Below are positions 389 to 60,059 of a stretch of 64,000 nt of DNA, piece by piece. The notes below the pieces were generated by a model. The model was not told the DNA's origin and searched no databases. It saw nothing but the letters and a program-made list of their open reading frames with translations. The position numbers and the translations under genes were made by a program. Origin of the DNA: Chrysophaeum taylorii. Lineage: Eukaryota > Sar > Pelagophyceae > Pelagomonadales > Pelagomonadaceae. The DNA lies in assembly GCA_029834535.1 (NCBI GenBank), contig JAQMWT010000573.1, positions 30,376 to 94,375 on the forward strand, read 5' to 3'. Within the stretch, counting starts at the first letter, position 1; each line of letters starts with the position of its first letter.

Positions 389-395
389 AATATAA

Positions 396-479
396 AGAAC
401 AGTAATTTCAACTGTGTTACCCTTCACCAGAGCGTGAGAACAGTGGTAGTCTATCCTCTCGATTCTGTCTTTAAATGTC
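396..479 (-). repeat. Family A 3' LTR, outer part
   Basis: This matches 10,284-10,364 of the 5' LTR with a few substitutions, up to the shared CCTCTCGATTCT segment. The remainder of the LTR resumes at 1,833, so the LTR is split. Confidence 0.75.
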
Positions 480-489
480 GACTGCTAAG

Positions 490-870
490 AGGGGGGTGTG
501 TGTGGGGAGCATGAAGGATGTGGGTGGGTTTGTGGGGTATGAGGGATGTGCCTGACGGGCGGAGATAAGTACGCGGGACCTAGTCGGGGTCATCGCCGAG
601 GCGTGGGGCAGACGAAGAGAGGACGGGCCCCGCCCGTAGGTCGTACGCATGCTGCCGCCGGACGTATGTGCGACGAAGGGTGACGTCCTGCTGGGAGCGG
701 GCGGCCTGGGTGGGGTTCCCCGAGGCGGCGACATGGGTGAGGGCGGTGAGGGCACAGCGAGCCCGGCCTAATGCGTTGGCGATGCCCCACTCACGGTAGA
801 TGCGGCGAGTTTGGGCCGCCTTTGCCTCTGTGAAGTTGGCGCAGCCGCTTGCCACCCAGGTTCGCATTCT
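490..870 (-). repeat. Dispersed repeat family R1, copy 1
   Basis: One of four copies in the window (others at about 23,530-23,830, 26,690-27,020 and 27,790-28,125). On the minus strand it can be read as a short protein-like stretch containing TEAKAAQTRRIYREWGIANA, which recurs nearly unchanged in copy 3. No known domain was recognised. It may be a fragment of a mobile element open reading frame. Confidence 0.7.
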
Positions 871-885
871 GTCTCCTCAGCGAGC

Positions 886-1381
886 CAGACATTGATCCTC
901 CAAGCCGTCTACGGCGACCTCGCAGACTATTTCCACGACCCGCGGCGGCTCTTTCAGCGCGCCATTCTCACGCCCCGTCGAAACGATGTTGTCGATGCTG
1001 ACAACGTGCGCATGACCGCGGCCTTTTTTTCCCGGAGACGAGGCGTCGGAGTTCTTTTCGGCCGACTAGGTTGGGTCGGAAGACGACGCCTCGCTCTTCA
1101 CAGTCGAGTTTGCAACTCCCTGACAACCAACGGCATGCTGACTTTGATCGCGAGCTTAAAGTCTTCGCAACCTCGACCCGTCGCACGGCCACTGCAACGG
1201 TACCAGATACATGATCGATCGTGTCGTGTCACCGAGGCTCCTCCAACCTGTATCCCTTAAGGCCTGCCGACGCCAAACGATCAACAAGAGCCAGGGCCAG
1301 ACGCTCCGCGAGGTCGGCGTCCTCTCGCCCAAGCCCGTCTTCTGTCACGTCCAGCTCTACGTGGCTCTCTGTCGATCGGCA
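886..1381 (+). pseudogene. Pif1-like (Helitron-type) helicase C-terminal fossil
   Basis: At 886-1,010 the translation gives YGDLADYFHDP..LFQRAILTPRR-NDVVDADN. This matches the conserved block of Pif1/Helitron helicases that runs into the LTPRN..V..(I/L)N motif. At 1,271-1,381 another frame gives TINKSQGQTL and VFCHVQLYVALCR, the terminal Pif1 motifs (AMTINKSQGQT...QLYVALSR). The region between them is degraded, the two blocks are in different frames and the ATPase motifs are absent, so this is a relic. Pif1-family helicases of this kind are the usual partner of the Helitron Rep protein, which is not seen here. Confidence 0.75.
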
Positions 1382-1479
1382 ACCCCGAGGATGTGCTCTT
1401 CTGAGTCGACGACTCCACCCTACCCCACACGTGCTGCGCAATACCGATAAGCCCCCTCCCGGCGTCTACACGCGCACTG

Positions 1480-1825
1480 TAGGTGAACTTACTGGGACCA
1501 GGTGAACTTACTGGAACCAGGTGAACTTACTGAGGTTAGAGATTGGGACTAGGTGAACTTAGTGACCAGGCGAACTTACTGGGACCAAGCGAACTTACTG
1601 GGATTTTTAGAGTAAACTCAAAGGCTAGCGGCGTGTGCGGATCAAAGCAGCTTAGACTGGCGGGGGTGAGAGCGACGAGTTCAAAGGGGAGTGAGGTGAG
1701 TGGATGTGAGCACGAGTGGGTTTACGCCGAATTTATTGGGGTTAGAGATTGGGACTAGGTGGACTTACTGAGACCAGGTGAACTTACTGGAGTTAGGGAT
1801 TGGGGCTAGGTGAACTTACTGGCCT
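1480..1825. repeat. Tandem repeat, about 20-bp unit
   Basis: The unit reads about AGGTGAACTTACTGGGACC and recurs at least nine times with substitutions. It is interrupted between about 1,610 and 1,740 by non-repeat sequence. It lies inside the insertion that splits the family A LTR. Confidence 0.8.
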
Positions 1826-1832
1826 GCACTTG

Positions 1833-1938
1833 TGTGAATTAATAACACAGCGTTTTCTTAAAATCAAAGGGTGGTAAAGTTAAGGGAACTAACCCTAGAA
1901 TAGGGGGTACTAACCCTAATTCAGATTTTCTATCTCTA
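1833..1938 (-). repeat. Family A 3' LTR, inner part
   Basis: This aligns with 10,382-10,498 of the 5' LTR, including the GTGTGAATTAATAACACAG segment and the end ..TATCTCTA. There are small indels between the two copies, indicating an older insertion than the family B element. Confidence 0.8.
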
Positions 1939-1980
1939 CGCCCTCACAGATTGAACTCGGTGAGCGAATTCTGGATCAAA

Positions 1981-3555
1981 CTAAACAGGAAGCGTCTTGC
2001 CAGCGACAATAACATAGATATTGTTCTGGACAGAGTCGTACGGTGGGAGAGTGGCTGAAAAAGTAACGTGATGAGATGGCGGTGAGGAGGATGTTGAGTG
2101 AACACCGTAGGCGTTTTTGAGCTTGTGGAATAAATTGCGTGGAAGGAGTTTCGAAAAATGATCAGCGACCTGGTAGTGAGTAGGACACCAGAGAGGTCTA
2201 ATGATCGAATTAGCTTGGTAGTCACGAATGCGAAATTCTCGTAAATTGACATGACGAGAAGGAGCACTGACTTTAGGGTGATTAGCGACATGTAATGGGC
2301 TAGCGTTATCAATAAGCAGGGGAATAGCGTGAGCTTGATCACACGAAAACAGATAAGGGTGAGAGGAGAAAAGCTTGTAAAACCAGTGACATTCATCGGC
2401 GGCTGCGCTGGCGGCCATGAGTTCAGCTTTCATGGTGCTTTTGGCAGTAAGAGTTTGTCGTTTGCTAGACCAAAATACGAGATTGCCCATGACGAAGATA
2501 CATGCACCAGAATTGGATCGCAAGCGAGGGTCAGAACGATCAGCAAAACTTGCATCAGTAAAACAAATAATAGGTGAACGAAGGTGATGCAGTTCAGGAT
2601 AGCGGTTGATCAGATGCTGAATAAAGGGGGTAATAGAGGGGCTGTCGGATGAATAGTCGAGGGAATCAGTCGGAGTACCCTTTACGTAGCGAAGTAAAAC
2701 AAATAAGTGTAGAAGTTGGGTCTGATCAGGGTTGTGCATGCCCTTGCAGCATTTGTTGCACAAAGTGGTGATATGAGGCCGACATGTGACAAGAAAGGAT
2801 CTGATGTTGTCATGCCATGTACCTTTGCCATATTCCTTCTCCAGAGCAGTGCGAAGGGATGTTATTTTGGCAGTGTTGGTACCAGTGATCAATAGGTCAT
2901 CGACTGAAACGGATAGTAGAACCCATTTGTTGATAGATCGATCCCAATTGATATAGAGGCAAGTGTCGACTTGTGAGCGTTCGAACTCATGTTGTCGAAG
3001 AAACGAGTCGAGTTTGATGTTCCACAACAAAGCTGACTGTTTGAGGCCATATAGAGCCTTGACGAGTCGGAGAGCGAGCTTCGACTCTGGATGGTTCTTC
3101 TGTATCTGCTGGATAAGATTTTGCGAGACACGTATTCCTCGAGGGAAGTCGATCCATACTGGGCGATCGAGTGCCGATTGGATGAATGCCTGAGGAATGT
3201 CCGCGTGCGCGACCGGGAGCTTGTGCTTCACAGCGATGGCGAGCAGTAGCCGGTTGGTGGCAAGCATTGCGGTTGGGGAGGATGTGGCATAAAAGTCAAT
3301 GCCTACACGTGCCAAGAAACCTCGGGCGACTAGACGAGCTTTATAGCGGCCTGGAGTGCCGTCAGCAAAATACTTGATCTTCAGCACGAGCTTCGTCGAG
3401 ATAGACGAACGGTCTGGCGGTAAAGGTTCAAGTTTAAAGACACCGTTGGAGCACAGTCCTTCAATTTCTTTATGAATCGAAGCGGTGCGCTTTAACTTAT
3501 ATTCTTCGCTGAGTCCTTTGAGTTCGACAATCTTTTCAGGCTCGTAGACAAACAA
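1981..3555 (-). CDS. Family A copia reverse transcriptase and RNase H
   Basis: An open frame of 524 codons with the Ty1/copia reverse transcriptase (RVT_2) in the N-terminal half: KARLVARGF, then HADIPQAFIQ, ALYGLKQS, and VSVDDLLITG at the active site. The RNase H follows, with CFTDASFADR and TAKSTMKAELMA carrying the usual acidic residues. The first residue of the YxDD box is Ser instead of Tyr. The frame overlaps the upstream linker frame by 20 nt with a frame change near 3,550, so it would be made only by frameshifting or is a decayed polyprotein segment. There is no independent ATG of obvious significance. Confidence 0.9.
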   Translation of the reverse strand: MFVYEPEKIVELKGLSEEYKLKRTASIHKEIEGLCSNGVFKLEPLPPDRSSISTKLVLKIKYFADGTPGRYKARLVARGFLARVGIDFYATSSPTAMLATNRLLLAIAVKHKLPVAHADIPQAFIQSALDRPVWIDFPRGIRVSQNLIQQIQKNHPESKLALRLVKALYGLKQSALLWNIKLDSFLRQHEFERSQVDTCLYINWDRSINKWVLLSVSVDDLLITGTNTAKITSLRTALEKEYGKGTWHDNIRSFLVTCRPHITTLCNKCCKGMHNPDQTQLLHLFVLLRYVKGTPTDSLDYSSDSPSITPFIQHLINRYPELHHLRSPIICFTDASFADRSDPRLRSNSGACIFVMGNLVFWSSKRQTLTAKSTMKAELMAASAAADECHWFYKLFSSHPYLFSCDQAHAIPLLIDNASPLHVANHPKVSAPSRHVNLREFRIRDYQANSIIRPLWCPTHYQVADHFSKLLPRNLFHKLKNAYGVHSTSSSPPSHHVTFSATLPPYDSVQNNIYVIVAGKTLPV

Positions 3556-4897
3556 AATCTTCAGCGGTCACGAGCTGTAACACGACGTGATCGATGTGCT
3601 GCAAGTCATAGTCCATGGCTTCTTGGAGAATATCTTGATTCGGATCACTTTGACTTAGGAAGAGGTGTCCGAGTTCGCCAGAATCATGCATGAAGGCATG
3701 CCTGTGCCGAGAAGCTAGGTGGTAGTGCTGATGCGCGGAGATGTCCCACAAAAGAGAGGAACCCATACAACAGAGCTCTTGGTTCCATTGACGCGCATAA
3801 TACTCTGCCGGTGACAGGTCGTCGTGGCATACATAGTTTTCGAGAACAGAATTGTCGTTATCGAGGTGATCAACCAATACAGATGAGTGGTGCGGCTTCC
3901 TTGGGAAGTCAACATACAAAAGTTCTGCGTCGGTTTCTCTCTGCAAATCCAGTGCGGTGCCGCCCATGATACCATAGTCTTGTGTGGCACTTGCTAGGAG
4001 ACATCCTTTCGGGATATCATTTGGCGGCTTAGCATCTCTTCGAATATTCAGATCAGATGCGATGCTGGCGGCGTGGCCCTGGTGAAGAGCGCTGACACTG
4101 ATGAGGAACATCAATGCGCTGGACATGTTGGCTGTGGTATGAGCCGTGGATTGCTCCTGCTGGTATCTCCAGTTGCGACCATACTCTGAGGCGATAATGC
4201 GTCTGGTGAAGAGTTTTCCATCGTCAACACGTTTCACGATATAGAGTTGATCCTCAGGGATGCGAAATCCACGTTCGTCCTTGAGATCTGCTTTGAGCTT
4301 ATCGCTCTGGTTGCGATGCACGAGAACTGGGGTAAAACCTGAATCGTCGAGAACAAGCTCTAGGCGATCTTTTTGTTTGGACATCGGAATGCTACCATCC
4401 GGCGGGAGTGGCCGGTTGAGGAACGAAAAATCCTGTTCGGGTGTCTCGTCGCTGACGGGACTTGAATCAGCAGCGGGAGTTGGATCCAGTTCTTTGTGTT
4501 CGTCGTCATCGCTAGGTTTATCATCCTGCTCGTCATCGTGAGTCTCGCCCTCATTTTGCGATTCCTGTCTAACTTCCGGCATTTGCTGTTCGCTTATAGC
4601 TGGTAGCGGGTCCTCTTGCCGTGCCTCTGTTGGGATCTGTGCGAGTGCTTTGATCCGTTCGATCTCCTTGTTGCGGTTGACTGGCATGTCTGCGTCAACA
4701 TGAAAGTCGTTAGAGGTAACGATATTTCCATATCGCCCCTGATGTACAAGCAAAGATGGAGCTGTGAACATCACGGATAAATCGGTCCGTGCCGGGGAGG
4801 TTCGGGAGATAGTTGTTACTGTGAAAGTAAGAGGCGGAGACGCTGGAGGGTTCCAGCTTGTGACTTTGAGGGTAGACAAAAGTGACAGGTTCGCCAA
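3536..4897 (-). CDS. Family A pol linker region between integrase and reverse transcriptase
   Basis: An open frame of 453 codons, rich in Asp/Glu/Ser/Pro over residues 100-170, linking the integrase frame to the reverse transcriptase frame. In copia polyproteins this interval is a poorly conserved, acidic, disordered connector after the integrase C-terminal part. No catalytic motif is visible. The 5' end overlaps the integrase frame (4,710-4,897) and the 3' end overlaps the RT frame, both in different frames, so it is not a standalone gene. Confidence 0.6.
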   Translation of the reverse strand: MANLSLLSTLKVTSWNPPASPPLTFTVTTISRTSPARTDLSVMFTAPSLLVHQGRYGNIVTSNDFHVDADMPVNRNKEIERIKALAQIPTEARQEDPLPAISEQQMPEVRQESQNEGETHDDEQDDKPSDDDEHKELDPTPAADSSPVSDETPEQDFSFLNRPLPPDGSIPMSKQKDRLELVLDDSGFTPVLVHRNQSDKLKADLKDERGFRIPEDQLYIVKRVDDGKLFTRRIIASEYGRNWRYQQEQSTAHTTANMSSALMFLISVSALHQGHAASIASDLNIRRDAKPPNDIPKGCLLASATQDYGIMGGTALDLQRETDAELLYVDFPRKPHHSSVLVDHLDNDNSVLENYVCHDDLSPAEYYARQWNQELCCMGSSLLWDISAHQHYHLASRHRHAFMHDSGELGHLFLSQSDPNQDILQEAMDYDLQHIDHVVLQLVTAEDFVCLRA

Positions 4898-5342
4898 AGG
4901 GAAGGAGCTTCAAGAGCGGTGCCATGGGTGACATGATGCGCCGGGGAACGGTGCATGCCAAGTTTGTGCGCGAGGGCAGTCCATGAGAGCGCTGGTTGTC
5001 GGCTTGGATCTTATGCAGGAGAGCAAATGGATGATAATACTCGGCGGCAATAGACTTTCCTTCGATGCGTACACTGCGAAGGTTGAGGAGACGAACTACG
5101 GCGCCTCGGGTGTCTTGAAACTGGATGCCAAGTTGCACCTTGAGGAGGTGGAAAGCTTCAGAGCGGAAAGTTGAGAATGCATCAGACGATATGATTTTCA
5201 CACTGACATCGAATTCGACCTTAATCACATTGACCGCATAGAGGATGCCGGCCAGAACATCCTTTTCCGCAGGAAATAGACCCACTTGTGTGCAGAGATA
5301 ATACACACGAAGTGCATGATGTAACGAAATCCACCGTAGCAC
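4710..5342 (-). CDS. Family A integrase, distal part of the catalytic core (frame-shifted)
   Basis: This frame continues the integrase core begun in the frame that ends at 5,225. The stretch VKIISSDAFSTFRSEAF corresponds to the second Asp region of the copia DDE core (usually VK..RSDNGGEF). The expected third acidic residue is not clear. Overlap with the previous frame at about 5,225-5,342 shows a frame change near 5,270. I read it as the same polyprotein broken by an indel or needing recoding. Confidence 0.6.
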   Translation of the reverse strand: MLRWISLHHALRVYYLCTQVGLFPAEKDVLAGILYAVNVIKVEFDVSVKIISSDAFSTFRSEAFHLLKVQLGIQFQDTRGAVVRLLNLRSVRIEGKSIAAEYYHPFALLHKIQADNQRSHGLPSRTNLACTVPRRIMSPMAPLLKLLPFGEPVTFVYPQSHKLEPSSVSASYFHSNNYLPNLPGTDRFIRDVHSSIFACTSGAIWKYRYL

Positions 5343-7351
5343 TTGCTGACGATCGGGTACGATACATCCATGTGGAGGTGTTGGCCAGGAGCATAGGTCA
5401 GTTCATCCTGTGACCAGGAAGTGTTCTTGTGACGGAAGCTGACATGCGATTGACAACGCTTGCATTCGCTGCAGTCTTGCAGATACCGATCATCACCTGG
5501 GCGAAGATTCGTTACATTAGCGGCAATCGTGCGGCGAAGAATCTCTGGTTGCTGGTGGTGTATTCGGTGCCACCGAGTGACCAAAAGCACTCTTTTGGCG
5601 TGCTGAATGGTGCCGTGCTTGTGCAAGGGAGGCAGAGCAGCAGTCGAAGCGCTGGGGGGGCTGGGTCGCTTGTCGACTGGGATTTTAGCGACGGTTGCCT
5701 CGGCAAGAAGCGTCTCGAGGTTTTTCGATTTGCGTGGTTTGCGGATCGCATTATGGTGAGCATCTGCTATGGCATTGAAGAGGGAGGTGAGGTTGAGGCC
5801 CTCCTCTGCTAAGAGACGGCTGGAGATGCTCATGAAGAAGACTGCAACCTGGGTGATGTCTCCTGGGCTGGGGATGCCATTGCGTATTGTTGCCCATTCG
5901 ATGTGAAAGTTCACGTGGTGGTGCGATTCGTGCAGTGCGAGAACAGCGCTGTACTTTGCCTGCAGCATATTGTGCGGGACGCCGTTGGCCAGTGCCTTAA
6001 ACGCGAAGTACGGCGGGTGCTGTTGGAACAGACGGAGCAGTTCTGGGTCCGAGTGGTGTCCAAACTTTGCGATTTCGTTGAGGGTCGCATAGCGGATGTG
6101 GTCTGGAGAGATCAGCAGCAAGGCGTTGGAGTAGCTCGTGTTGGTTGGGTACGAGCCAGTGACCGAGTAACACTTGGTGCTTTTCTGAAGCGTGTCGCCG
6201 ATGTGGCCGACATAATCCGCATAGATGGGACGGGCTTTGGACATTATTAGTCCCGTGGGGTCATCGAGAGTAATTCGCCCTCGTGAGTCGATCGCGGCAA
6301 AGCCAGGATGCGAACGATTCATATAGTGGACCCAAGTAGCGGGGCACTGTACACGAAGGGCGGGTTTGGCGATCCAGAGATCGTCAGGGATGGTGTGAGT
6401 GGGGTCCAGGAGAGGAACCATGCTCGGAGGCGAGGTTAACCAAGTAGAAGCGGTTTTCTCGAGGTTGTAGCCGGTGAGCGGGTGTCGGGCATACACAGCG
6501 AGATAGCGTGTCTTGCTGATGACGTCACCAAAAGCAGAGGCATTATAGACACCGGAGTGTCGGAAGTAGCCTAAGCGCTGATAGCCTTTTGCGAGTTGAG
6601 CATACTCGTGATGAGTCCTTGGGTTGGGAGGTACGTTCTCGACAATGGCGTAGGTCGGGAGCGTGCAACGAACAAAGCGGATTTGTTCTTGGACAAAAAG
6701 ATCGGCGGTGACCGGAGTGGCATATCCCTCGTATTCTTGCATTACACTTAGATGTTGACAGGGCAATGTAAAAACTGCCAAGTCGAATGGAGGTAGTCGT
6801 ATTCTGCCGGTTTGGAGGGCGGCATTGAGTTTCCTTAGGTCCGCATAGTGCTGAGCGTGCGGAAAGAGTTGTTGCGCACGGGTGCGCATAATATGGTTAA
6901 TTTCGCAGGTGACCACGACAGTAAGGCGTTTGTCGAATCGTTTGCGAAAAGTGTCGAAACCTTCTTGGTGAAGTCCACCTGCAATAATGGCTGTTTTGAG
7001 CGGAGGGGGTTGTGCTTGCACAGAGAGGGCTGCGGTGCCATTAAAGGCGTAGTGGACGACAGTATGTTGGAGGTTGAGCAGTTCATTTGAATACATGGAA
7101 TGATTCTGTAGCTTTGCGAAATCAAGCGTGTGCGATTTAGAGCGTGTCTTGGCGACATGCTGTGTGATGTGTGCAATCTCATCCTCGAGTGACATTCGTT
7201 TTCTTGTGTGGAAACTAAGCACAGTTGTGAATGTTTGCTTTGGATGGGACGGCAGGGACAACAGGCCGTTAGGTTTGCGAGTGGCGAGTACGACGGCGGT
7301 TTTTCCTAGAAGAGTCTTATAATCGTGCGGATCGAAGGTGGAGGACTTCAT
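5225..7351 (-). CDS. DNA cytosine-5 methyltransferase fused to integrase N-terminus, in copia family A
   Basis: An open frame of 708 codons starting at ATG 7,351. Residues about 118-475 (about 5,927-7,000) form a complete-looking C5 cytosine DNA methyltransferase: motif I AGGLHQEGF (124-132), motif II Glu150 in TCEIN, motif III Asp171 in YADLRKL, motif IV LPCQHLS with catalytic Cys198 (codon 6,758-6,760), motif VI ENV (238-240), motif VIII around 274-288, motif IX around 420-433 and motif X ALANGVPHNM (453-462). Between VIII and IX lies the probable target-recognition region. Residues about 584-633 hold an HHCC-type zinc site (CSECKRC), and 652-695 start the integrase core with Asp662. The enzyme should transfer a methyl group from S-adenosylmethionine to cytosine in DNA. 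The frame is continuous with the protease frame except for one TAA at 7,364-7,366. Methyltransferase-bearing retrotransposons have been described in other eukaryotes, as I recall. Confidence 0.92.
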   Translation of the reverse strand: MKSSTFDPHDYKTLLGKTAVVLATRKPNGLLSLPSHPKQTFTTVLSFHTRKRMSLEDEIAHITQHVAKTRSKSHTLDFAKLQNHSMYSNELLNLQHTVVHYAFNGTAALSVQAQPPPLKTAIIAGGLHQEGFDTFRKRFDKRLTVVVTCEINHIMRTRAQQLFPHAQHYADLRKLNAALQTGRIRLPPFDLAVFTLPCQHLSVMQEYEGYATPVTADLFVQEQIRFVRCTLPTYAIVENVPPNPRTHHEYAQLAKGYQRLGYFRHSGVYNASAFGDVISKTRYLAVYARHPLTGYNLEKTASTWLTSPPSMVPLLDPTHTIPDDLWIAKPALRVQCPATWVHYMNRSHPGFAAIDSRGRITLDDPTGLIMSKARPIYADYVGHIGDTLQKSTKCYSVTGSYPTNTSYSNALLLISPDHIRYATLNEIAKFGHHSDPELLRLFQQHPPYFAFKALANGVPHNMLQAKYSAVLALHESHHHVNFHIEWATIRNGIPSPGDITQVAVFFMSISSRLLAEEGLNLTSLFNAIADAHHNAIRKPRKSKNLETLLAEATVAKIPVDKRPSPPSASTAALPPLHKHGTIQHAKRVLLVTRWHRIHHQQPEILRRTIAANVTNLRPGDDRYLQDCSECKRCQSHVSFRHKNTSWSQDELTYAPGQHLHMDVSYPIVSKCYGGFRYIMHFVCIISAHKWVYFLRKRMFWPASSMRSM

Positions 7352-7363
7352 AAGTTCGTACAG

Positions 7364-7879
7364 TTATGGCTCGTGGGGCAGTGGCGGATCGGTGGCTTGT
7401 ACATGCAGGGCTTTGAGCTGAGATGTTGCGATAACTTGGAGACCTTGCCTGAATTGCGGGACGACCATAAATACGAGATATAAAGCGTAACCGGTTGAGT
7501 CTTTTGTATCCTTTGAGGAGAGACCTGCAGCCTGCAAATACAACGGTTTAACACCGATGAAGTGGCTGGTAAGGGTGCCTCGTCCCATATGAATGGTGTG
7601 TTCGGGAATCCGGCGTATGGACTCAGGAACAAAGTGTTGTATTGAGCGCGTAAAGCAAAAAGATGCGCCACTGTCAATCAATGAAGTTTCAGTGCCGGGT
7701 CCATTGCATCCGTGCAGCGAGTTAGTCTGCTTTGAGGTCTTTCCTGGAGTGTAAGTTGCACAAAGAAAATCTGCGACTCTGGGTGAGATGGTTGATGATG
7801 TCGGGAAATTCGCCATCTTGAGGTTTGGTGCCTGATTGCGTAAGATGTGGTTGGCGGCACAGGCGTCGTCGGCAACCAT
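7364..7879 (-). CDS. Family A retrotransposon aspartic protease
   Basis: An open frame of 171 codons with LIDSGASFCFT at residues 67-77 (the Asp codon at 7,673-7,675). This is the DSGA catalytic motif of retroviral-type aspartic proteases (usually D-S/T-G-A). It would mature the Gag-Pol polyprotein. The reading frame is open upstream of the listed Met (residues ..SPPESAFSL), so it is a polyprotein segment. It ends with a single TAA and then the same frame resumes into the methyltransferase after four codons, suggesting stop read-through or a point nonsense mutation. Confidence 0.85.
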   Translation of the reverse strand: MVADDACAANHILRNQAPNLKMANFPTSSTISPRVADFLCATYTPGKTSKQTNSLHGCNGPGTETSLIDSGASFCFTRSIQHFVPESIRRIPEHTIHMGRGTLTSHFIGVKPLYLQAAGLSSKDTKDSTGYALYLVFMVVPQFRQGLQVIATSQLKALHVQATDPPLPHEP

Positions 7880-9802
7880 CAGCGAAAAAGCCGACTCTGG
7901 TGGAGAGCACGCATATAGTCACTGTGGCGTTGTGCATAGTCTTCGGCGGAGTCATCTTCATCATTGATTTCGGGAATGGTGTCGTCGTAGAGGTCTAGCT
8001 GACCGTTGTCGTCATAGAAACCGAGGTGTCCTTTTTCGTCTTGTTCATCGGTTTCGGCTTCGCCCTCATCAGGTGGATCGTCCTGGGGATCTGACGTCAA
8101 CATCTGGAGAAATATATTCTGCGGCATCGTTTTCGGCTTCGGAGAGAAGTATCTCGTCGGAGATGGTGGTGATGAGGTTGATGAGCTTGTTCATGCGCTC
8201 GGAGCTTGACGTATGTTGGCGACCGGCTTGACTAAGATTCCGCATGGTTTGGAGCTTGCGACGGACTTCACGAAGGGGGACCTTGAAGCGCTGGTCAGGA
8301 GTAGATGGTTTGGGTGGATGAGGTTGTGTGGGAAAAGTGACCTTGCGAAGATGCGGGTGCTCGCGTTTGTCAGGGGTGACAGGAGGAGCACGGGGACGTT
8401 GCTTGTTCTTCGTTGGGGTGACAGGAGTAGCCTTGGGCTTAGGACTGGCATTGATGTCGTAGTAAGACAGGGAGCGAGGATTTGGAGGCTTTTTGTTAGG
8501 AGGGGGCTTTCTGGGCGTGCCGCGAAATTTGCTTTTTGCGGTAGGCGTGGAGTTGGTGAATGACGTCATTGTCTTCGCCGTCGTGGTCAAGGTTGGCCTC
8601 CGTGAGAAAAACAGCGACGGGGTCGGTGTCTTCGTCGGGATCCGGTGGGGTGTCATCTTCAGAGGGAGAGGTATCATCATCGTCTTCGGTGAAGTGGAGA
8701 CCATGACGGCGGGTGCGAAAACGTGGATTGTCTTTGTCTTAAGTCGGTAGACGACCAAAGTCAGTGACGAAGCGCAAAGGCTTGAAGTTGAGAGTTGGGT
8801 GAGGCTTGAGGTGAGCCCAAAAGTTGCGCTCAAACGTGGAGATGACTGTGATGCGGGCGATGAGCTTGGGAAGGTGGTTGATGGCTTCTTTGTCTTCGTC
8901 GAGTAACAGCGAGTCATTGGGAGTGCGCAGACAGTTAGCAAGACGTGCGAAGCCCTTGATGTGTGTTGGGGCGCGGGAGTCAAGCAAACTTGGAGGGTAC
9001 TTAAAGCGAAGCAGTTGGTGGAATTTTTCCTCGAGAATCTTGTCGTCTGAAAGTTGGAGAGAAGCGTCGTTTGTTATCTAGCGCAGTTGCTGCTGGACAC
9101 GGCGCATATATTCAATATAGTGCGCAGGCTCTCGTGGATCTCTGGGTTGAACGGCGTGTCCAGGAAGGCATTATAGACGTAATGCGCATGGTGGACGTGG
9201 TTCTGGCCCGTGTGCTTGTCGAGTGCTAGGCGAACTTAAAGCACAAAAAATTCGAGTCCTATCGGATAGGAAGATCCGAGTGCATCGATTTCGTTGTATG
9301 CTGGGTGCTTGACGGAGTCGCTACCGGCATGTAGGAAACGGCGAAAGAGGGGGTGCACGGTCTCGCGGAGATATACGATGAAGTCGGCTTCTTTTCCTTG
9401 GAGATGAGTTTGGGTGATCGGATACAACTTGCCTTTTGTCATATCGGTCGGGTCCTTGTCTTTATCTTTAAGTTCTTTTGGAGCTTTGGCTCGTAGACGT
9501 TCGCCAGGAAGTGTTTGCCGAACTTGCGGTAGACACCCTTGTGGAAGACGTAACGGCCTTGGAAATCTTGCGTGTTCCCTCCCGGCGGTAGAGTGGTGGT
9601 CGGGGTCCTTGTCGTATTCGTCGATACAGTGGCTTAGGAGAGCGTCAGCGAGATCATTTATAGATCCGCGCAAGACGGATAACCACGTGTAGAAGCCCTG
9701 TAGGAGGTACTGAGTTATACCTGTTTCAGGCATCAGATGTTCGACGAACAACTGCATGACGCGAAACGAAAGCATTTGGGGTGTGACTTGCGCGTTGTCC
9801 AT
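7879..9802 (-). CDS. Family A gag region (several frames)
   Basis: Several overlapping minus-strand frames (9,236-9,802; 8,739-8,987; 8,069-8,983; 7,879-8,127) together cover the Gag position between the 5' LTR and the protease. They include a helical segment with YLLQGFYTWLSVL, a Pro/Thr/Lys-rich basic segment (8,190-8,600) and an acidic segment (7,950-8,080). No CCHC zinc knuckle was found. The breaks between frames mean that no single full-length Gag is encoded in this copy. Confidence 0.6.
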
Positions 9803-9956
9803 TGACTTGAGGACGACGGCGCTTGGTGGGTCACTAAAGGTATTAATTTTGGTCTTGGGATCTTGCTGAGCCGGAGTGGGAGGTGGAGCCGCAACAGCGA
9901 CGGCAGGTGGTGTGCTTGCACTCGGGCGGACAACGCGTCTATTTGAGCCATCCAGC

Positions 9957-10195
9957 GAGCTTCTTATTCTCGAATCTCCTTTTGATGCTTGGCTTCTAAG
10001 CGAGCTCGCTTCTTGTTCTCGAATCTCTTTTTGATGCTTGGCTTCTAAGCGAGCTCGCTTCTTGTTCTTGAATCTCCTTTTGATGCTTGGCTTCTAAGCG
10101 AGCTCGCTTCTTGTTCTCGAATCTCTTTTTGATGCTTGGCTTCTAAGCGAGCTCGCTTCTTGTTCTCGAATCTCCGTTTGGAGTTCTTGATTGGT
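9957..10195. repeat. 49-bp tandem repeat in family A gag 5' region
   Basis: A unit of exactly 49 bp beginning CGAGCTCGCTTCTTGTTCT starts at 10,001, 10,050, 10,099 and 10,148, with partial units on both sides and high identity. Forty-nine is not a multiple of three, so each unit shifts the Gag frame. The minus-strand N-terminal Gag frame (from about 10,276) stops within the array. The encoded peptide is Glu/Arg/Gln-rich, like a coiled coil. Confidence 0.92.
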
Positions 10196-10283
10196 TAGCA
10201 TTTTGCTTGGGTTCAGGAACGTCAGCGAGCGGGACTCGTCTGGAAGTCCGGAGGCTCTGCTGATACTGGTGCCCAATACCTAG

Positions 10284-10498
10284 AGAACAGTAATTTCAAC
10301 TGTGTTGCCCTTCAGCAGAGCGTGAGAACAGTGGTAGTCTGTCCTCTCGATTCTTTCTCCTAAACGAGAGGACACGGGCGGTGTGAATTAATAACACAGC
10401 GTTGTTTTCTTAAAATAAATCAAAGGGTGGCAAAGTTAAAGGGACTACCTACCCCTAGAATAAGGGCTACTAACCCTAATTCAGATTTTCTATCTCTA
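10284..10498 (-). repeat. Family A 5' LTR
   Basis: Both blocks of the split 3' LTR (396-479 and 1,833-1,938) are joined here, giving an LTR of about 215 bp. Immediately downstream on the minus strand is TGGGCACCAGTATC, a candidate primer binding site starting with TGG. The LTR ends do not show clear TG..CA, so the boundaries are approximate. Confidence 0.75.
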
Positions 10499-11484: not shown

Positions 11485-13060
11485 TCAGTGGCCCAACCGC
11501 AGACAAGTTTCGCGTGGTTTGGCCTTACAGCACCCTCGATTGCGCCTATGCAAACACCTGCAGCTTGGCCCGGAGATAAGAGTCTTGCTCTCGAAAGCTC
11601 CCCGTTCAAAAAAAGGAACGTGGACAACGTCCCAGCCAATCCGGGACTTGAAGCGCGTCGAGCCATCCTCAACCCTCGATCTCCCAAGGTAGTGGAATGG
11701 CCCGTCGACTTCGACCGCGCGCTTGGTGTCGGGTTGAGCCATGTCAAGCGACAATCCCTCTTCGATCACGTGCTCAAAGACGTGCGCCCAGCCAACTCGG
11801 TCGAGCGCGGTCACAACGTCGCGATGGAGTTGGGACGGTGATGGGCCCTGACGTTTTGGAGCCACCAGGAGTAGTTGCCGGTGGTTTGAGCTCCGGTCGG
11901 GCCACTCAAGCGTAGTAAAGTGCAACGAAGCAAGGTGGAACTGCGACAAGCCGCGATCGTCGAGGGTATTGAAATCAATCTTCCATAGCAATGGAGGCAA
12001 GCTCGGCAAAAAACTTAGGGTCCTTATTCCAGTCGACGCAGGCAAACGCCCACACTGTGTTCGCGAGGTCCTGGGGAATGAACCCACCAAGCCGCGACCG
12101 GGCCGCCAGGGCAATCGCGTCGAAGAGCTGAGGTGCCTCGACGCGTGCCGTCCCGAATGAATGCCCACGCAGTGTTGGCGAGGTCCTGCAGATTGAACTC
12201 GCCAAGTCGCGGATGAGCCGTGTCAGCGATGGCCGCATAGAGATGAGGTGCCTCGATGCGCGCCGTCGCGAATGCCCAAGCTGTGTTGGCTAGGTCCTGC
12301 GGATTGAACCCACCAAGCCGCGACCGGGCCGCCAGGGCAATCGCGTCGAAGAGCTGAGGTGCCTCGACGCGTGCCGTCGCGAATGAATGCCCACGCCGTG
12401 TTGGTGAGGTCCTGCGGATTGAACCCACCGAGACGCGATGAAGCCGCGTCGGCGATCGCCGCGTACAACTGAGGTGCCTCGATGCGTGCCGTTGCGAAGG
12501 CCCACGCAGAAGCCGCGCCGGCGATCGCCGCGTACAACTGAGGTGCGTCGATGCGTGCCGTCGCGAAGGCCCACACCGTGTTGGAGAGGTGCTGCGGATT
12601 GAACTCGCTAAGCCGCGAAGGAGCCGTGTCCGCGATCGCCGCGTACAACTGAGGTGCCTCGACGCGTGCGGTCGCGAAGGCCCACGCTTACACGTGAGCG
12701 AGGTTCCGCGCATCGAACTCTCGAATGCGGTGCCAACAAGCGTCTGCGAGGGCCATCACACGGCGATCGCGTTGCGCGTCGCGGTTCTGGCCTCCAAACT
12801 TGGCGACGCGGTGCGCGGCAGCCGCCAAACTCCGAGCGCTGAATTCGTCGCCACGAGCCGCGAAGAGTGAGAGAATCGTTTCGGGAGTCGCACCGCGGCC
12901 CGTCATCTGCTTCCCCCATTTAATTTGTTGCCAAAGCGGTGCCTCGGCACTGATGGGTCGAGTGTGGCTCGAGCGAACGCGACAGTCCGCGGCGTAGCGG
13001 GCGCCGCTGCGGCGATACGTCTCACCCCCTTGTCGCATCGCGCCCGCGACTGAGAACCGC
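11485..13060 (-). pseudogene. OPR-repeat / RAP-domain protein pseudogene
   Basis: On the minus strand, successive frames give an N-terminal QQIKWGKQM segment (near 12,900), then repeats of about 38 residues with the consensus FNPQDLANTAWAFATARIEA / PQLYAAIADAA (12,000-12,660), then a RAP domain at about 11,560-11,800 with RAVEVDGPFHYLG. Octotricopeptide-like repeats plus RAP are known from organelle RNA-processing and translation factors. At least four frame changes occur. Two repeats (near 12,155 and 12,382) carry the same 4-nt GAAT duplication that shifts frame, and one repeat is shortened near 12,510. The protein cannot be read through, so I call it a pseudogene. Confidence 0.8.
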
Positions 13061-18258: not shown

Positions 18259-18747
18259 CTACCTTCTTTCGGAGAGAGAAATGTCACGATGCCAATCGCT
18301 GCGGCCCGTGGAATGGTCGTAAAAGTACCAGCACCCAGAGGCCGGGTCGACGACGCATCCATTCGGTCGCTCGAGCGGTATGAATTTGTCTGGCGCGTCC
18401 CACACCGAAATTCCGCTAAAGGCGTTGTGGAAGTACGTGCACCCGCTCGCGGGCTCGAGGTACTCGCGCCATCCTGCTTCCTTCTCATCCGTTAGAGGAG
18501 GAGGAGGAGGGGAGAACTGCGCATCCGGGTACTGCGCACCCGGGTACTGCGCGTCGGTGTCGGGGTACTGCGCACCCGGGTACTGCGCGTCGGTGTCGGG
18601 GTACTGCGCATCTGCGTACTGCGCGTCGGTGTCGGGGTACTGCTCATCTGCGAACTGCGCATCGGTGTTGGGGTACGCGGTGTCCTGCCCATCATCCGTG
18701 TCCGGCGCCTCGTCCTCGCTCGAGGAAGTATACTCTGCTACAATCAT
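18259..18747 (-). CDS. WW-domain-like protein with DTDAQYP repeats
   Basis: 162 codons from ATG 18,747; the frame is open upstream but only a TTG is there. The N-terminal half is a low-complexity acidic/aromatic tract of repeated YPDTDAQYADAQ / YPGAQ units, whose DNA is a tandem repeat (18,525-18,665), then PPPPPL. The C-terminal half has two WW-like modules: GWREYLEPASGCTYFHN..SGISVW, with both tryptophans, and a second (CVVDPASGCWYFYDHSTGRSDW) lacking the first. WW modules bind Pro-rich ligands, and the protein carries its own PPPPPL stretch. Expression and role are unknown. Its stop lies 13 bp from the RCC1-like gene stop, a convergent pair. Confidence 0.7.
   Translation of the reverse strand: MIVAEYTSSSEDEAPDTDDGQDTAYPNTDAQFADEQYPDTDAQYADAQYPDTDAQYPGAQYPDTDAQYPGAQYPDAQFSPPPPPLTDEKEAGWREYLEPASGCTYFHNAFSGISVWDAPDKFIPLERPNGCVVDPASGCWYFYDHSTGRSDWHRDISLSERR
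18525..18665. repeat. Tandem repeat within the WW-like gene
   Basis: Imperfect repeats of GGGTACTGCGC(A/G)(C/T).. of about 18-36 bp encoding the YPDTDAQ units. Unit lengths are multiples of three, so the frame is kept. Confidence 0.85.
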
Positions 18748-18875
18748 TTTGTTCTCTAACCATAACCTCCCGACCCGTTGAAAAAGCACGAACAACAAAC
18801 AACAATAACAACAACATTTTCAAAAAACGCCCTAGTATCCGTTGGAATAGTGTGTGTGACCTCTAGATATAGGGG

Positions 18876-18974
18876 TGTTACGAATGGTATGAGGCGTTAG
18901 ACTAGCGATAAGAGAAAGACGTAAGGATACTGGATACGTGGTGGTGCAGGGGTAAGTGTCATAGCTTCTTCACA
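18876..18974 (-). repeat. Family B 3' LTR
   Basis: 99 bp, starting TGTTACGAATGG and ending CTTCTTCACA on the plus strand. It is identical to 23,404-23,499 except for an extra GTG. Confidence 0.95.
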
Positions 18975-19075
18975 CAGGTGCTGGAAAAGAAGGAAAAGGA
19001 AAAAGGGGTAAGTGAGGTCCTCACACAGGTGCTGGAAAAGAAGGAAAAAGAAAAAGGGGTAAGTGAGACGCTCAC
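18975..19075. repeat. Direct repeat next to the family B 3' LTR
   Basis: Two copies of a unit of about 55 bp that reads CACAGGTGCTGGAAAAGAAG and continues with AAA/GGG-rich sequence ending GGGGTAAGTGAG. It resembles the LTR edge (GGGGTAAGTG..CACA). On the element's coding strand this tract is pyrimidine-rich, so a conventional polypurine tract is not evident. The same repeat pair is present in the copy at 59,800-59,900. Confidence 0.75.
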
Positions 19076-19154
19076 AGAGGAGAAGCTTGAAGGAAGAAGA
19101 CGTCAGGAGAGGCAGTGTGGCAAGAAAAAGAGACAACGGAGATCAGGGCGAAGA

Positions 19155-20891
19155 TCACGAAGTGAGGTAACGAGCACGAAGCCGGAGGAAGGAAGGAGCT
19201 TCCGTACTGCGGGTGAAAATGTCGCTAAGATTGTGAAGGCGGGGTATGTGCTTGAGATCGATGATGTGGTTGCGATGATATTCGGCGGTACTGTAAAAGC
19301 GAATGTCAATATGGCGGGTGCGCCGTGTGAGACATTGGAGACGAACTTGGGTGACTGTGGTGCTATTATCAACATACATTGGGACCGTGTGACGAGGGAG
19401 ATCAAAGTCATCAAAAAGTTTGAGAAGCCAAGAGAGCTCAGCAGTAGCAGCGTAAAGAGCAAGCAATTCAGCTTCGAAAGAAGAACGAGCAAGTAAGTAT
19501 TGCGAGCGGGAGCAGTAGGCTATCATAGAGCCGCTGAGAAGAAAACAAAACCCAGTTGTAGAGTGGCGGTCATCAGGGTCGTCGGCCCAGCTGGAGTCGG
19601 AATAACCACAGAGATGAAGGGTAGAATCGCGACCAAGAATAAGGGCAAGATCCTGAGTACCGTTGAGATAACGCAGAGTGTGGGATAAAGCGTGCCAGTG
19701 GTGTTTACCAAGATTGTGGGAAAAACGCGCACACTGATTGACGGACCAAGTGATATCAGGGCGAGTCATGATGGAGATGAAGAGGACACAGCCAACAATA
19801 CGGCGAAAAGGGATGCGTGCCATGAAGATGTGATCTGGAGAACCAGGAGCCGGACAATCAGCCGCAGAAAGATGAAGACCTTTGGGAGCGGGAGTGAGTT
19901 CGGGTTTACTGTTGATGAAGCGATGTTCGGTAAGGATTTCACGGATAGCATGGGATTGGTCAAGAGTGAGGGTTCTCCGAGGGCGATCACGCGTAATGCG
20001 AAGACCAACGTAAGAGGTGAGATCGAGTTCATTGACGTCAGTGAAAGCGCGGAAACGGAGGAAAAAGGCTTGGTAATGGCCAATGCAATGAGGAGGGTGC
20101 GCCACAAGAAGATCATCGACGACCAAAACAAGACGGAGGACCACGGTAGAATTGAGGACGAGCTTGTAATGGCAAGTGTCACCAGATCCGCGGACGAAGC
20201 CACAATCATTGAGAAGGAAGCGCTCCAAATAAAGCCACCAATTACGACAAGCTTGTTTGCAACCATACCAAGAGCGACGGAGCTTGTAAACGATTTTGGA
20301 ACCATCGGTGGGTTGGCGAGGAGCATAGCCTTCGGGTGGCCAGACATAGATGTCTTCGTCAATGGGAGCTTGAATAAAGGCGGAGCTGACATCCAACTTG
20401 TGCAAATCCCAGTCATGAACAGCGACAAAGGCTAGAAAGAAACGGATCGTGACAATGTTGGCAACCGGTGAGTAGGTGTCATGATAATCAATGCCGTGAA
20501 CCTGGGTGTAACCGCGGACAACGAGGCGAGCCTTGTACGATTTGAAGCGGCCAGAGTCATACTTCTTGCGGAGGATCCACTTGAGGGTACAAATGTTGCC
20601 AGAAAACGTCGAAGGAAGGCGCATAACATCCCAGCAACCAAGCTGACCAAGGAAGCTATACTTTTTAGCGATGGCTTGCAACCAGCCAGGACGCTCAGGA
20701 TTGGTCGGAGCTAAAGCTTCACGTAAATGGGTGGAAGTAATAGTGGATTCGTCAAGGTCGGAATATTGCGACAGTTCTTCGGAAGCAGAGTAATAAACGT
20801 GTGCATGAGGATCAACAAGGGTGTTAGCTAAACAAAGGGGAAGGAAGACATAATGAACTAACAAACGAAAGCCAACAGAAGAGACATACAA
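19155..20891 (-). CDS. Family B copia reverse transcriptase and RNase H
   Basis: An open frame of 578 codons. RVT_2 motifs: WILRKKYDSGRFKSYKARL, VRGYTQVHGIDY, DVSSAFIQAPIDE, RRSWYGCKQACRNW and LVLVVDDLLVAHP (active site with Val in place of the first Tyr of YxDD). RNase H motifs: GYSDSSWADD and LARSSFEAELLALYAA. The C-terminus YVDNSTTVTQ...RTRHIDIRFY matches the usual copia RNase H tail. The same VVDD variant occurs in the copy at 58,560, so it is a family trait. The frame is fully open, consistent with recent insertion. Confidence 0.93.
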   Translation of the reverse strand: MYVSSVGFRLLVHYVFLPLCLANTLVDPHAHVYYSASEELSQYSDLDESTITSTHLREALAPTNPERPGWLQAIAKKYSFLGQLGCWDVMRLPSTFSGNICTLKWILRKKYDSGRFKSYKARLVVRGYTQVHGIDYHDTYSPVANIVTIRFFLAFVAVHDWDLHKLDVSSAFIQAPIDEDIYVWPPEGYAPRQPTDGSKIVYKLRRSWYGCKQACRNWWLYLERFLLNDCGFVRGSGDTCHYKLVLNSTVVLRLVLVVDDLLVAHPPHCIGHYQAFFLRFRAFTDVNELDLTSYVGLRITRDRPRRTLTLDQSHAIREILTEHRFINSKPELTPAPKGLHLSAADCPAPGSPDHIFMARIPFRRIVGCVLFISIMTRPDITWSVNQCARFSHNLGKHHWHALSHTLRYLNGTQDLALILGRDSTLHLCGYSDSSWADDPDDRHSTTGFCFLLSGSMIAYCSRSQYLLARSSFEAELLALYAATAELSWLLKLFDDFDLPRHTVPMYVDNSTTVTQVRLQCLTRRTRHIDIRFYSTAEYHRNHIIDLKHIPRLHNLSDIFTRSTEAPSFLRLRARYLTS

Positions 20892-20949
20892 AGAGTTACA
20901 GGGGAAACAGAAGCGACAGAGGAAACAGAATCAACATCGTGACAGGAGG

Positions 20950-21062
20950 AAACAGAATGGCCCGTATCAACATCACAAATGGCCCGTATCAACATCAGAA
21001 TGGCCCGTATCAACATCAGAATGGCCCGTATCAACATTGTGACAGGATGAAACAGAATGGCC
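20950..21062. repeat. 21-bp tandem repeat in family B pol
   Basis: About four copies of GAATGGCCCGTATCAACATCA between the integrase and reverse transcriptase frames. The unit is a multiple of three. Fewer copies are present in the relative at 57,880-57,940. Confidence 0.85.
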
Positions 21063-22182
21063 CGTAAAAAAAGTTTGTTGGTTGTTGTAACGCGCGTTGG
21101 TCGACTTTGCGCGGTCGGCCCCGTTTGGCACGACGTAATGGTGCACGTTTCGTATTGGCCGGTAACAATGTATTCAGTGACGGTTGAGTGGTTTGTGGGG
21201 TGATCAGTCCCGATAAGGCCGGCTCCGGAGCATCAAAAACAGAAGATATTGGGGCTACGGCCGAAGATAAACGAGGGTCGTAATAAAACAAGTCAGGAAA
21301 ACGAGAATCCACTAGAGACGGAGGAAGGGGTTGAGTGGACAGTGACTTACGCAGAGCGAAATTTTCGTCAAAAACAACATCAATCGAGGTGTGGATGACA
21401 GGACCTGTGGGGCGTTGAAGCAATATGCGATATCCAGGGCCTGCAGAGGGATACCCAATGAAGATACCGGTTATAGCTTTGGTAGGCCATTTGTCGCCAG
21501 TAAGAATTGCAGCAGGACAGCCCCAAACACGAAGAAAATCGACACGCGGGAGTGTTTCATGTAGCATTTCATATGGCGTCATATATCCAGGATTAGAGGC
21601 ATTTGGCATACGCTCAGAGATGAAGTCAGCCGTTTCCATGGCCCAACGCCAAAAATCAGGTGGACGGTGCGCATGTACCAAAAGAGTGCGAGTAATATCC
21701 GCGGTTGCGCGATGAGAGCGTTCCACAACACCGGAAAAAGCATGAGCCTGTGAAGTTTTGGACTGTGCTGCCGGAGCGCGCCGAAGCGCAATATTGTTGC
21801 CCAGACAGAAGGTTTCGAATTGGCCCATAAGAGAGCGGTCACGATCGGTGTAGATGAGGGCAATGCGATATCCGAATGGGCGAACCACGGTAGACAGAAA
21901 AAGTTCGAGTTGTCGAGCGTTCGTAAGGGCATCGTGTCGTGGAGCAAAGTAACGCGTGCGGCGGCGCGTATGATCATCGACAAACGTGAGCTTCATGGGC
22001 CAACGTTGGAGGAGCAAGCGGTGAGCTTCGTTCGTCATACTCGAATAGACTCCGGTAGAAGTTGGCGACAGTGGCAAAACAGTTGTGGCACGTAAGAACG
22101 TTGCAGATAGCTTGCAGATAGCGTCGCAGTGGCACGTAAGAACATTGCAGATAGCGTCGCGGGTGCTGAGCACGGAATTCAC
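21031..22182 (-). CDS. Family B copia integrase
   Basis: An open frame of 383 codons with the copia integrase core: LTFVDDHTRRRTRYFAP near residue 70 (first Asp), ALIYTDRDRSLMGQFETFC (second Asp; RSDNGGEF position), then FSGVVERSHRATADITRTLL (third acidic, Glu) and PDFWRWAMETADFISERMPN. After it comes the typical RVWGCPA, GIFIGYPSAGPGYRI and VVFDEN module of copia elements. The enzyme would insert the cDNA, consistent with the 5-bp AGGGG target duplication. The frame runs to 21,031, close to the RT frame. Confidence 0.92.
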   Translation of the reverse strand: MNSVLSTRDAICNVLTCHCDAICKLSATFLRATTVLPLSPTSTGVYSSMTNEAHRLLLQRWPMKLTFVDDHTRRRTRYFAPRHDALTNARQLELFLSTVVRPFGYRIALIYTDRDRSLMGQFETFCLGNNIALRRAPAAQSKTSQAHAFSGVVERSHRATADITRTLLVHAHRPPDFWRWAMETADFISERMPNASNPGYMTPYEMLHETLPRVDFLRVWGCPAAILTGDKWPTKAITGIFIGYPSAGPGYRILLQRPTGPVIHTSIDVVFDENFALRKSLSTQPLPPSLVDSRFPDLFYYDPRLSSAVAPISSVFDAPEPALSGLITPQTTQPSLNTLLPANTKRAPLRRAKRGRPRKVDQRALQQPTNFFYGPFCFILSQC

Positions 22183-23394
22183 GTCGATAGCAAAACCGAA
22201 ATTTAAAGGTCAGAAAAGCGGCGAAAACGTGCGTGAAGGAGAACCACAAATCACGCAGCAAAGAAGTGTCTGTCCAGGATCCCGAAGATGAGCGATCCAA
22301 CCACATAGGAAGCACGAAAACTGCGCACGCGAAAAATTGACGGGCACAGCTTAGTTGTGGCAGGTGAAATGCCCGATGGAACGTGATTCGCTGGTTTTAC
22401 CAAAACCGACAAGCACAACGAGGAGTGGATCAACGAATAGGTGAAATACAGAACGAGGAGGGGAGCAACGACGAGGTGAAAAGACAGAACGAGGAGAGGA
22501 GCAACGACGAGGGGAAAATACAGAACGAGGGGTGGAACAACGAATAGCGGAAAATACAGAACGAGGCGCCTGTGCAATGGGAGCTAAAAACAAGAAAACG
22601 AGGGGCTTCCGTGGGATGGGGTTGTTGATGTGCTTGCATCAGCTTGGAAGAGTCTGGTGGCTGACGACGCGGCGGATAGCGCGGCGGAAGTAGTTGTGCA
22701 TGCCATCGAAATTGGTTGTTGTTGAACTTCTCAAGGGTACAACCACGTTCATCGGTACGAAACGCGAGACGATAAAACAAAGCCAGTAAGGCTTGAAGCA
22801 CGATGCACGTAGTCAAATGCGAGGACACACTCGAGGGTGCGTCGGATCAGGTACAATGCCGAGCAACTTGAACTCCGGTGATAGGTAAAATGCCGAGCAA
22901 CTTGAACGCCGGTGATAGGTACAATGCCGAGCAAATTGTATACTCCAATGATGAATTGAGGAAGTTCGCTACGCGATCCCCACGGCCCATGTAGACATCG
23001 GTAATGCGCTTGTAAAGTCGCGTGAAGTTCATGTCGCGGTTGTCATGTTGTTCGCGTGAAGTTCATGTCGCGGTTTTCATGGATATCAACGTTGTTGCTT
23101 GACGCGAAAGTCTTCTTCAGAGCAGCGAGATGCTGAGATGCTAGTCCAAGGATCGTTGGTCGAGATAATGTGATCACCGGTGGAAATGATCATGTTTTCC
23201 AGGCGCCGGGTCCATTGGTGAAAAAGATGTCGCTCACCACTGAAAGCATCGAGTTTTTGCGAAAGCTTGCTATCCTTAATTTCGATCGAGGACATGATAA
23301 ACGATAACGAACCGAACACGTGGCAATGAACTGAAGCCGATGAGGAGTCGCTGTTGTCCGTGAAGTCAAGCTCAGGTCGTTCGGCCTTGAACAC
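22183..23394 (-). CDS. Family B gag region (broken into short frames)
   Basis: From 23,394 the minus strand encodes KDSKLSQKLDAFSGERHLFHQW..LENMIIS, which resembles the start of copia Gag (L.G..F..W...M). This frame ends at about 23,086, and the continuation (NFTRLYKRITDVYMGRGDRVANFLN) lies in another frame (22,980-23,032). Two tandem repeat arrays (22,851-22,950; 22,430-22,570) interrupt the rest. The same gag 5' segment is at 1-300. No zinc knuckle was seen. Confidence 0.65.
22430..22575. repeat. Minisatellite in family B gag
   Basis: About four imperfect copies of a unit of 36-37 bp containing ACAGAACGAGG and GAGCAACGACGAGG. On the minus strand it encodes repeated APRSVFS / PRRCS-like peptides. 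Confidence 0.8.
22851..22950. repeat. Tandem repeat of about 33 bp in family B gag
   Basis: Three copies of GGTACAATGCCGAGCAACTT and flanking GAACTCCGGTGATA, also three times at 31-130 in the truncated copy. The array predates the separation of the two copies. Confidence 0.9.
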
Positions 23395-23403
23395 CTGGTA
23401 CCA
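23389..23403 (-). promoter_or_regulatory. Family B primer binding site
   Basis: Directly next to the 5' LTR on the minus strand is TGGTACCAGGTGTTC. It begins with TGG, complementary to a tRNA 3' CCA end, and resembles the copia-type initiator-tRNA site TGGTA.CAG. A diverged copy is at about 301-313. Confidence 0.75.
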
Positions 23404-23499
23404 TGTTACGAATGGTATGAGGCGTTAGACTAGCGATAAGAGAAAGACGTAAGGATACTGGATACGTGGTGCAGGGGTAAGTGTCATAGCTTCTTCACA
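23404..23499 (-). repeat. Family B 5' LTR
   Basis: 96 bp, TG..CA ends, next to the PBS. The flanking AGGGG duplication follows at 23,500-23,504. Confidence 0.95.
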
Positions 23500-23529
23500 A
23501 GGGGGTTGTGAGCCTCACCCAGTGTCGTG

Positions 23530-23830: not shown

Positions 23831-23879
23831 CCTGCACAGCCTGCTGCGGAGTTTGGAAAGTGGAGTAAAAAGGCATGAA

Positions 23880-59998: not shown

Positions 59999-60059
59999 TC
60001 CGGTATCTTCGTAAGCCGGAGAACAGAGCCCTTCGTCTTTGGTTTCACCCTAAAAAGCA

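Follow-up and report, generated by a model that had tools for sequence, protein, structure and literature searches.

The window analysed here, a stretch of 64,000 nucleotides of eukaryotic nuclear DNA from the pelagophyte Chrysophaeum taylorii (C573:30376-94375, in a genome, G000, of 70.8 Mb in 697 contigs), contains a damaged Ty1/copia long terminal repeat (LTR) retrotransposon, which spans positions 393-10498 on the minus strand with LTRs at both ends. Part of its polyprotein is, almost certainly, a C5 cytosine methyltransferase (MTase) that has been under selection. The explanation that we favour for the whole, with a probability of about one half, is that the element is a broken copy of a family of MTase-bearing copia elements, the enzyme of which marks the elements' own cDNA. 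The features of the MTase region are as follows.

5925-7033, minus strand: C5 cytosine methyltransferase domain (PF00145, dcm, PHROG, PDB profile search, conservation among copies)
7003-6959, minus strand: MTase motif I (by eye and from the copies)
6769-6746, minus strand: MTase motif IV (PCQ, Cys198)
6649-6626, minus strand: MTase motif VI (ENV)
6529-6497, minus strand: MTase motif VIII
6330-6360, minus strand: junction of a private in-frame deletion of 522 nt, or 174 codons, in the VIII-IX region (comparison with other copies)
6091-6056, minus strand: MTase motif IX
6004-5969, minus strand: MTase motif X

A single minus-strand frame (5225-7363, 712 amino acids) encodes the MTase and, after it, the zinc site of the integrase with its first catalytic Asp. 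The frame matches PF00145 at 33.2 bits, compared with a curated cut-off of 22 (E 4.9e-8), two PHROG (phage) DNA-methyltransferase families (E 4.1e-9 and 4.7e-9) and, under its cut-off, the NCBIfam model dcm (E 1.6e-8); all of these matches run from just past motif I to motif VIII, leaving motifs IX-X outside. The hallmarks of C5-MTases are the catalytic PC dipeptide, ENV and the motif VIII Arg. Among the copies of the element described below, the catalytic Cys is kept in 40/41 and the Pro preceding it in 35/41, the Glu of ENV in 38/41, and the motif VIII Arg in all 42 with data. Motif IV of DNMT3 enzymes is PCN, not PCQ as here. Motifs I, IX and X were located by eye; they are in order and conserved among copies, motif I being atypical. 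A preliminary description of this DNA, made from its sequence, had proposed a C5-MTase in one frame of a Ty1/copia polyprotein, lying between protease and integrase; the PCQ, ENV, IX and X motifs are at the positions it gave, with the zinc site of the integrase and its first Asp next, and the profile searches assign the stretch from just past motif I to motif VIII to MTase families.

A search of the PDB with a profile built from host copies and a metagenome relative returned 22 sequences at E <= 10, of which 15 are C5-MTases, with M.HaeIII first (E 0.016). The latter aligns with motifs IV-VIII and then, collinearly but at 3.1 bits only, with IX-X. The other seven, ranked 2nd to 8th, all represent chains of a single RNA helicase, DOB1 (E 0.066-0.076), to which the profile aligns through its IX-X part (14.0 bits among the rows listed). 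The support for IX-X is weaker than that for the stretch up to VIII. Below DOB1 the list continues with HhaI, HaeIII once more, a cytosine methylase, DNMT1 and DNMT2. With single copies as queries, the PDB searches found no MTase. A 2-oxoglutarate oxygenase in the VIII-IX region, suggested by eye from an H-x-D...H pattern, was rejected, because the region has no Pfam match of any kind up to E 10 and 7/41 copies have Q, K or D in place of the first His.

The MTase-bearing copia is a high-copy, inherited family with the polyprotein order protease, MTase, integrase, reverse transcriptase (RT), RNase H. A 520-residue MTase query, for which 83 of 767 candidate places were scored (the counts are hence lower bounds), gave at least 94 matches in the host genome, 16 of which are free of stops from residue 3 to residue 519 or beyond, those on C668, C231 and C37 containing out-of-frame stretches; a 930-residue integrase-RT query gave at least 58 (49 scored of 2019 candidates). 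PF00145 is also above its cut-off in frames of three further copies (L021, L023 and L031); it is absent from the scanned frame of L022, which begins after a stop that removes motifs I-VIII. In copy L021 a single frame of 1952 amino acids encodes protease, MTase, integrase and most of the RT, with Pfam matches in the order DNA_methylase, rve (under its cut-off) and RVT_2. In all aligned copies the MTase is placed in line, after the protease and before the integrase, and the possibility raised in the preliminary description, that the domain reflects a chimeric assembly, or otherwise one chance insertion into one copy, is thereby refuted; the same domain order in an independent metagenome record, P0005, likewise argues against it.

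P0005 is a metagenome protein of 2396 amino acids (34 member sequences, 2 contigs). Its MTase shows 31% identity across 39% of the query, and its RT part 38% identity. PCQ is kept, motif IX (RYMTIRDAAKLKSFDD) is more typical, motif X contains ANAVP, and a stretch of comparable length is present where the window copy has lost 174 codons. The P0005 MTase is not recognised in a Pfam scan at E 1; PHROG recognises it at E 8.6e-4. Two more copia elements lie in the window (18300-24300 and 58107-60412), with RTs that are 88% alike over 224 amino acids; the frames of them that were scanned contain no DNA_methylase. RT identity between the host family and P0005 is 42-46%, compared with 27-28% between the host family and the second copia of the window and 21-22% between the host family and the third; P0005 is 29% and 25% identical, respectively, to these two. 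Because the RTs of the host family and P0005 are closer to each other than either is to those of the co-resident copias that lack an MTase, the fusion of MTase and copia most likely predates the divergence of the two lineages, as judged from these sequence comparisons. P0005 is the one relative found with the polyprotein as query; no relative of P0001 was found among 7993 scored candidates, the length limits of that set excluding polyproteins, and none of P0005 was confirmed in viral contigs.

The MTase domain is under purifying selection in the family. Pairwise ratios of nonsynonymous to synonymous substitution (dN/dS) were obtained from a set of 42 distinct copies, using for each domain those with at least 80% coverage of it (15 to 41 copies, depending on the domain), pairs with undefined dS being dropped and medians taken in bins of dS from 0.05 to 2. 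With rising dS, the medians are 0.31, 0.25, 0.24, 0.19 and 0.14 for motifs I-VIII; 0.37, 0.31, 0.25, 0.15 and 0.17 for the VIII-IX region (about 315 amino acids); and 0.19, 0.11, 0.11, 0.12 and 0.10 for motifs IX-X, i.e. 0.10-0.37 across the MTase parts. For comparison, those of the integrase go from 0.23 to 0.07 and those of the RT from 0.29 to 0.08; the linkers are looser, with 0.63 to 0.18 before the MTase and 0.24 to 0.41 after it. Pairwise ratios take in the neutral decay that follows insertion as well as the selection acting on active lineages, and so understate constraint. A stretch of about 390 amino acids in the integrase-RT interval (4753-3551) has a median dN/dS of 0.12-0.27, with no credible Pfam match.

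The window copy itself is broken: there is a stop between protease and MTase, there are frameshifts in the integrase and beyond, and the 3' LTR is split. It also lacks the 522 nt between motifs VIII and IX that the other copies covering this stretch possess, the deletion junction being unique to it in the genome (search within 3 mismatches). Thus, with 174 codons lost, the enzyme of the window copy is very likely not intact, even though its motif set is. The preliminary description had proposed selection on the MTase until recently; selection is supported for the family, given the dN/dS values and the retained Cys, but preservation until recently is not supported for the window copy, with its private deletion and frame damage.

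The element's enzyme looks like an orphan type, without detectable sequence closeness to the host's DNMT2 and DNMT5. A genome search with PF00145 (123 scored of 474 candidates, exon by exon) gave at least 57 matches, the top two places among those listed being DNMT2 (L049, on C634; E 3.9e-39 with DNMT2 in the PDB) and DNMT5 (L050, on C621). L050 matches PDB entry 7r76 at E 8.5e-76; that entry, titled 'DNA repair protein Rad8', is one which we take to be Cryptococcus Dnmt5, and an SNF2 match lies on the same contig and strand as L050, in a frame that, like that of L050, is 2086 amino acids long. The third-ranked place (C4:17268) lies upstream of a copy of the element family, and several of the 57 matches adjoin such copies. 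The element profile scores no better with the host DNMT5 piece than with shuffled controls; host DNMT2 is not among the matches listed for that profile, and hhalign with DNMT2 gave a probability of 0.3%.

As to what the enzyme does, methylation of the element's own cDNA is the likeliest role, although we put it forward tentatively. The MTase would be made as part of the polyprotein and packed with RT and integrase, and could methylate cytosines of new element cDNA before or at integration; new copies would then enter the genome already marked, and host DNMT5 could copy the mark onward. A precedent is the de novo CG methylation that retrotransposon DNA methyltransferases (DNMTs) carry out in yeast (PMC5890265), and DNMT5 is described as a maintenance enzyme (PMC10538959). 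It seems improbable that the copia, with its own orphan MTase, is the host's main de novo writer of cytosine methylation, with DNMT5 copying the marks forward; were this so, the epigenetic marks of the host would originate from a parasite, which would itself have to be marked in order to survive. The pairing of an element MTase with host DNMT5 raises the question of who writes and who copies the marks.

The mutation record speaks against dense, long-lasting, mutating CpG methylation of the copies. Changes private to one copy, counted where 12 or more copies are aligned and 60% or more of them have the same triplet, show no CpG bias (CpG 6.3, other C 6.0 and A-to-G 6.3 per 1000), and no sequence context stands out (range 4.2-7.9 per 1000). 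The CpG observed/expected ratio is 1.06 for the window element, 0.99-1.05 for three 10-kb copy loci and 1.29 for the window at 24-58 kb. Host genes likewise show no CpG depletion, which limits what this record can say; for that reason it is compatible with methylation.

The same lack of CpG bias speaks for an enzyme that methylates RNA, e.g. the tRNA primer or the element's own RNA, rather than DNA. RNA methylation has been raised by the authors of PMC5890265 for a LINE DNMT that was inactive on yeast DNA, and the tRNA enzyme DNMT2 is among the distant PDB profile matches (E 1.6) and in row 8 of the Foldseek results; by contrast, there is no detectable closeness to the host DNMT2, and the best profile and VIA matches, though weak, are bacterial MTases and DNMT1. 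An RNA target is thus rather unlikely, though less so than a domain kept without catalysis, to bind DNA, assemble particles or target integration. The latter would account for the conservation of the VIII-IX region, which could bind DNA or protein, but not for the near-invariant Cys, Glu and Arg or for the PCQ of P0005. Least probable of these alternatives is that the domain methylates host or competing DNA, e.g. that of incoming DNA viruses, and so helps the host, as Morozov et al. (PMC6338049) have proposed for transposon DNA methylases; nothing here indicates such a target, and the domain sits within a polyprotein that handles cDNA.

The remaining parts of the element, and an insertion within it, are as follows.

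10281-10498, minus strand: 5' LTR, 218 nt, ends TAGAGA...TCTCTA (aligned with the 3' LTR)
8069-10093, minus strand: gag-like region in several broken frames, corresponding to the 578-amino acid first open reading frame of copy L021
7364-7918, minus strand: aspartic protease region (LIDSGAS, read by eye), ended by a stop codon ahead of the MTase frame
5264-5569, minus strand: integrase HHCC zinc site and first catalytic Asp (5368), as far as a frameshift at about 5264
4725-5264, minus strand: remainder of the integrase core, in a different frame
3551-4753, minus strand: conserved stretch in the integrase-RT interval
1981-3567, minus strand: copia RT (RVT_2, PF07727, E 6.6e-38), then RNase H (by position and alignment to P0005)
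1832-1938, minus strand: 3' LTR, first part (LTR alignment)
471-1831, no strand assigned: insertion that splits the 3' LTR
1160-1447, plus strand: Pif1-helicase-like fragment within that insertion (PF21530, E 9e-5, 22.6 bits, just under the cut-off of 23.9)
393-470, minus strand: 3' LTR, second part, separated from the first by the later insertion (LTR alignment)

The assignment to Ty1/copia follows from the RVT_2 match, which is equally clear in copy L021 (E 1.6e-38), and from the integrase preceding the RT in the window, L021 and P0005, as this superfamily requires. The integrase of L021 matches PF00665 (rve) at E 0.0061, under the cut-off; the catalytic D, D and E of the family's integrase are kept in 33/34, 32/34 and 32/32 copies and the two zinc His in 32/34 and 34/34. 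The two LTRs of the window are identical at 174/185 aligned bases. Both flanks are fully in view in three copies (window, L024 and L040), of which only L040 has an exact 5-bp target duplication, ATGAG; L024 has no such repeat, that of the window copy is imperfect, and in L032 the 3 bases that can be seen agree with a duplication. Pfam searches gave no family for the gag-like region at E 0.1 (three window pieces and the scanned L021 frame), no match for the protease region and no RNase H match for the RNase H part of the window element. The usual protease active site is D-S/T-G, from which most copies depart: of the 22 copies with data, 21 have D-G-G and one has D-S-G. The window copy reads LIDSGAS, and P0005, unlike most host copies, has DSG. 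Tandem 49-nt repeats lie in and beside the gag-like region (9954-10198).

Elsewhere in the window there are a RAP-domain frame with ANTAWAF-type tandem repeats (11485-12755) and an open frame of 1218 amino acids that joins carboxyltransferase, PYC_OADA and biotin domains (51790-55443). The genome contains 84 matches to the light-harvesting family PF00504, which indicate a photosynthetic alga with an abundance of such proteins; a number of them form tandem arrays, e.g. on C88 and C539. Long frames without introns are also present.

Cytosine methylation usually silences transposons, so that elements carrying an MTase are a puzzle. That DNMT-bearing retrotransposons were already known, as the preliminary description stated, is borne out by PMC5890265, which reports carriers among LINE, DIRS and Gypsy elements, those of DIRS and Gypsy having Dnmt3, and cites Iyer et al. 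2011 for DNMTs linked to RT domains; PMC6338049 names Gypsy and DIRS. The family described here is of this known kind, with a DNMT in the element's coding frame, many copies and purifying selection. SymbioDIRS-Dnmt3 and KnitGypsy-Dnmt3 (de Mendoza et al. 2018, PMC5890265) are similar in having a C5 DNMT in the Pol polyprotein, several copies, reported purifying selection and algal hosts, but they are DIRS and Ty3/Gypsy elements with Dnmt3-type enzymes, whereas the present one is Ty1/copia and its PCQ-type enzyme is not visibly Dnmt3. SymbioLINE-Dnmt (PMC5890265) is likewise a retrotransposon with an orphan DNMT; however, it is a non-LTR element with the DNMT in a reading frame upstream of the RT, not between protease and integrase. 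The Dam-type MTases of DIRS elements (PMC5890265) and the ParB-MTase protein of an Ectocarpus DNA transposon (PMC12477816) are also transposon-borne, but are adenine or N4-cytosine enzymes of another class. Host DNMT5 and DNMT2 share PF00145 membership with the element's enzyme.

With regard to copia carriers, PMC5890265 states that the Copia superfamily of Symbiodinium has no DNMT domain. The sole mention of a copia with a DNMT found in the accessible literature is one sentence of PMC12344493 (2025), which gives 'LTR Copia and DIRS' for DNMT3 members; Iyer et al. 2011 could describe another. Compared by description only, the elements of that sentence share the Copia name with ours but differ in being assigned to DNMT3, and, as the sentence cites the 2018 paper, which describes Gypsy, they may be those same elements. 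Given the different element superfamily and an enzyme without detectable closeness to host DNMT2 or DNMT5, the capture was likely independent of those published for LINE, DIRS and Gypsy elements, insofar as sequence comparison can tell. What is new here is thus a Ty1/copia carrier, a PCQ-type, orphan-looking enzyme, and a fixed place between protease and integrase; because that place is common to a second source, P0005, the fusion appears to be old and kept. The DNMT-bearing retrotransposons thereby gain a Ty1/copia lineage with a seemingly different, orphan type of enzyme.
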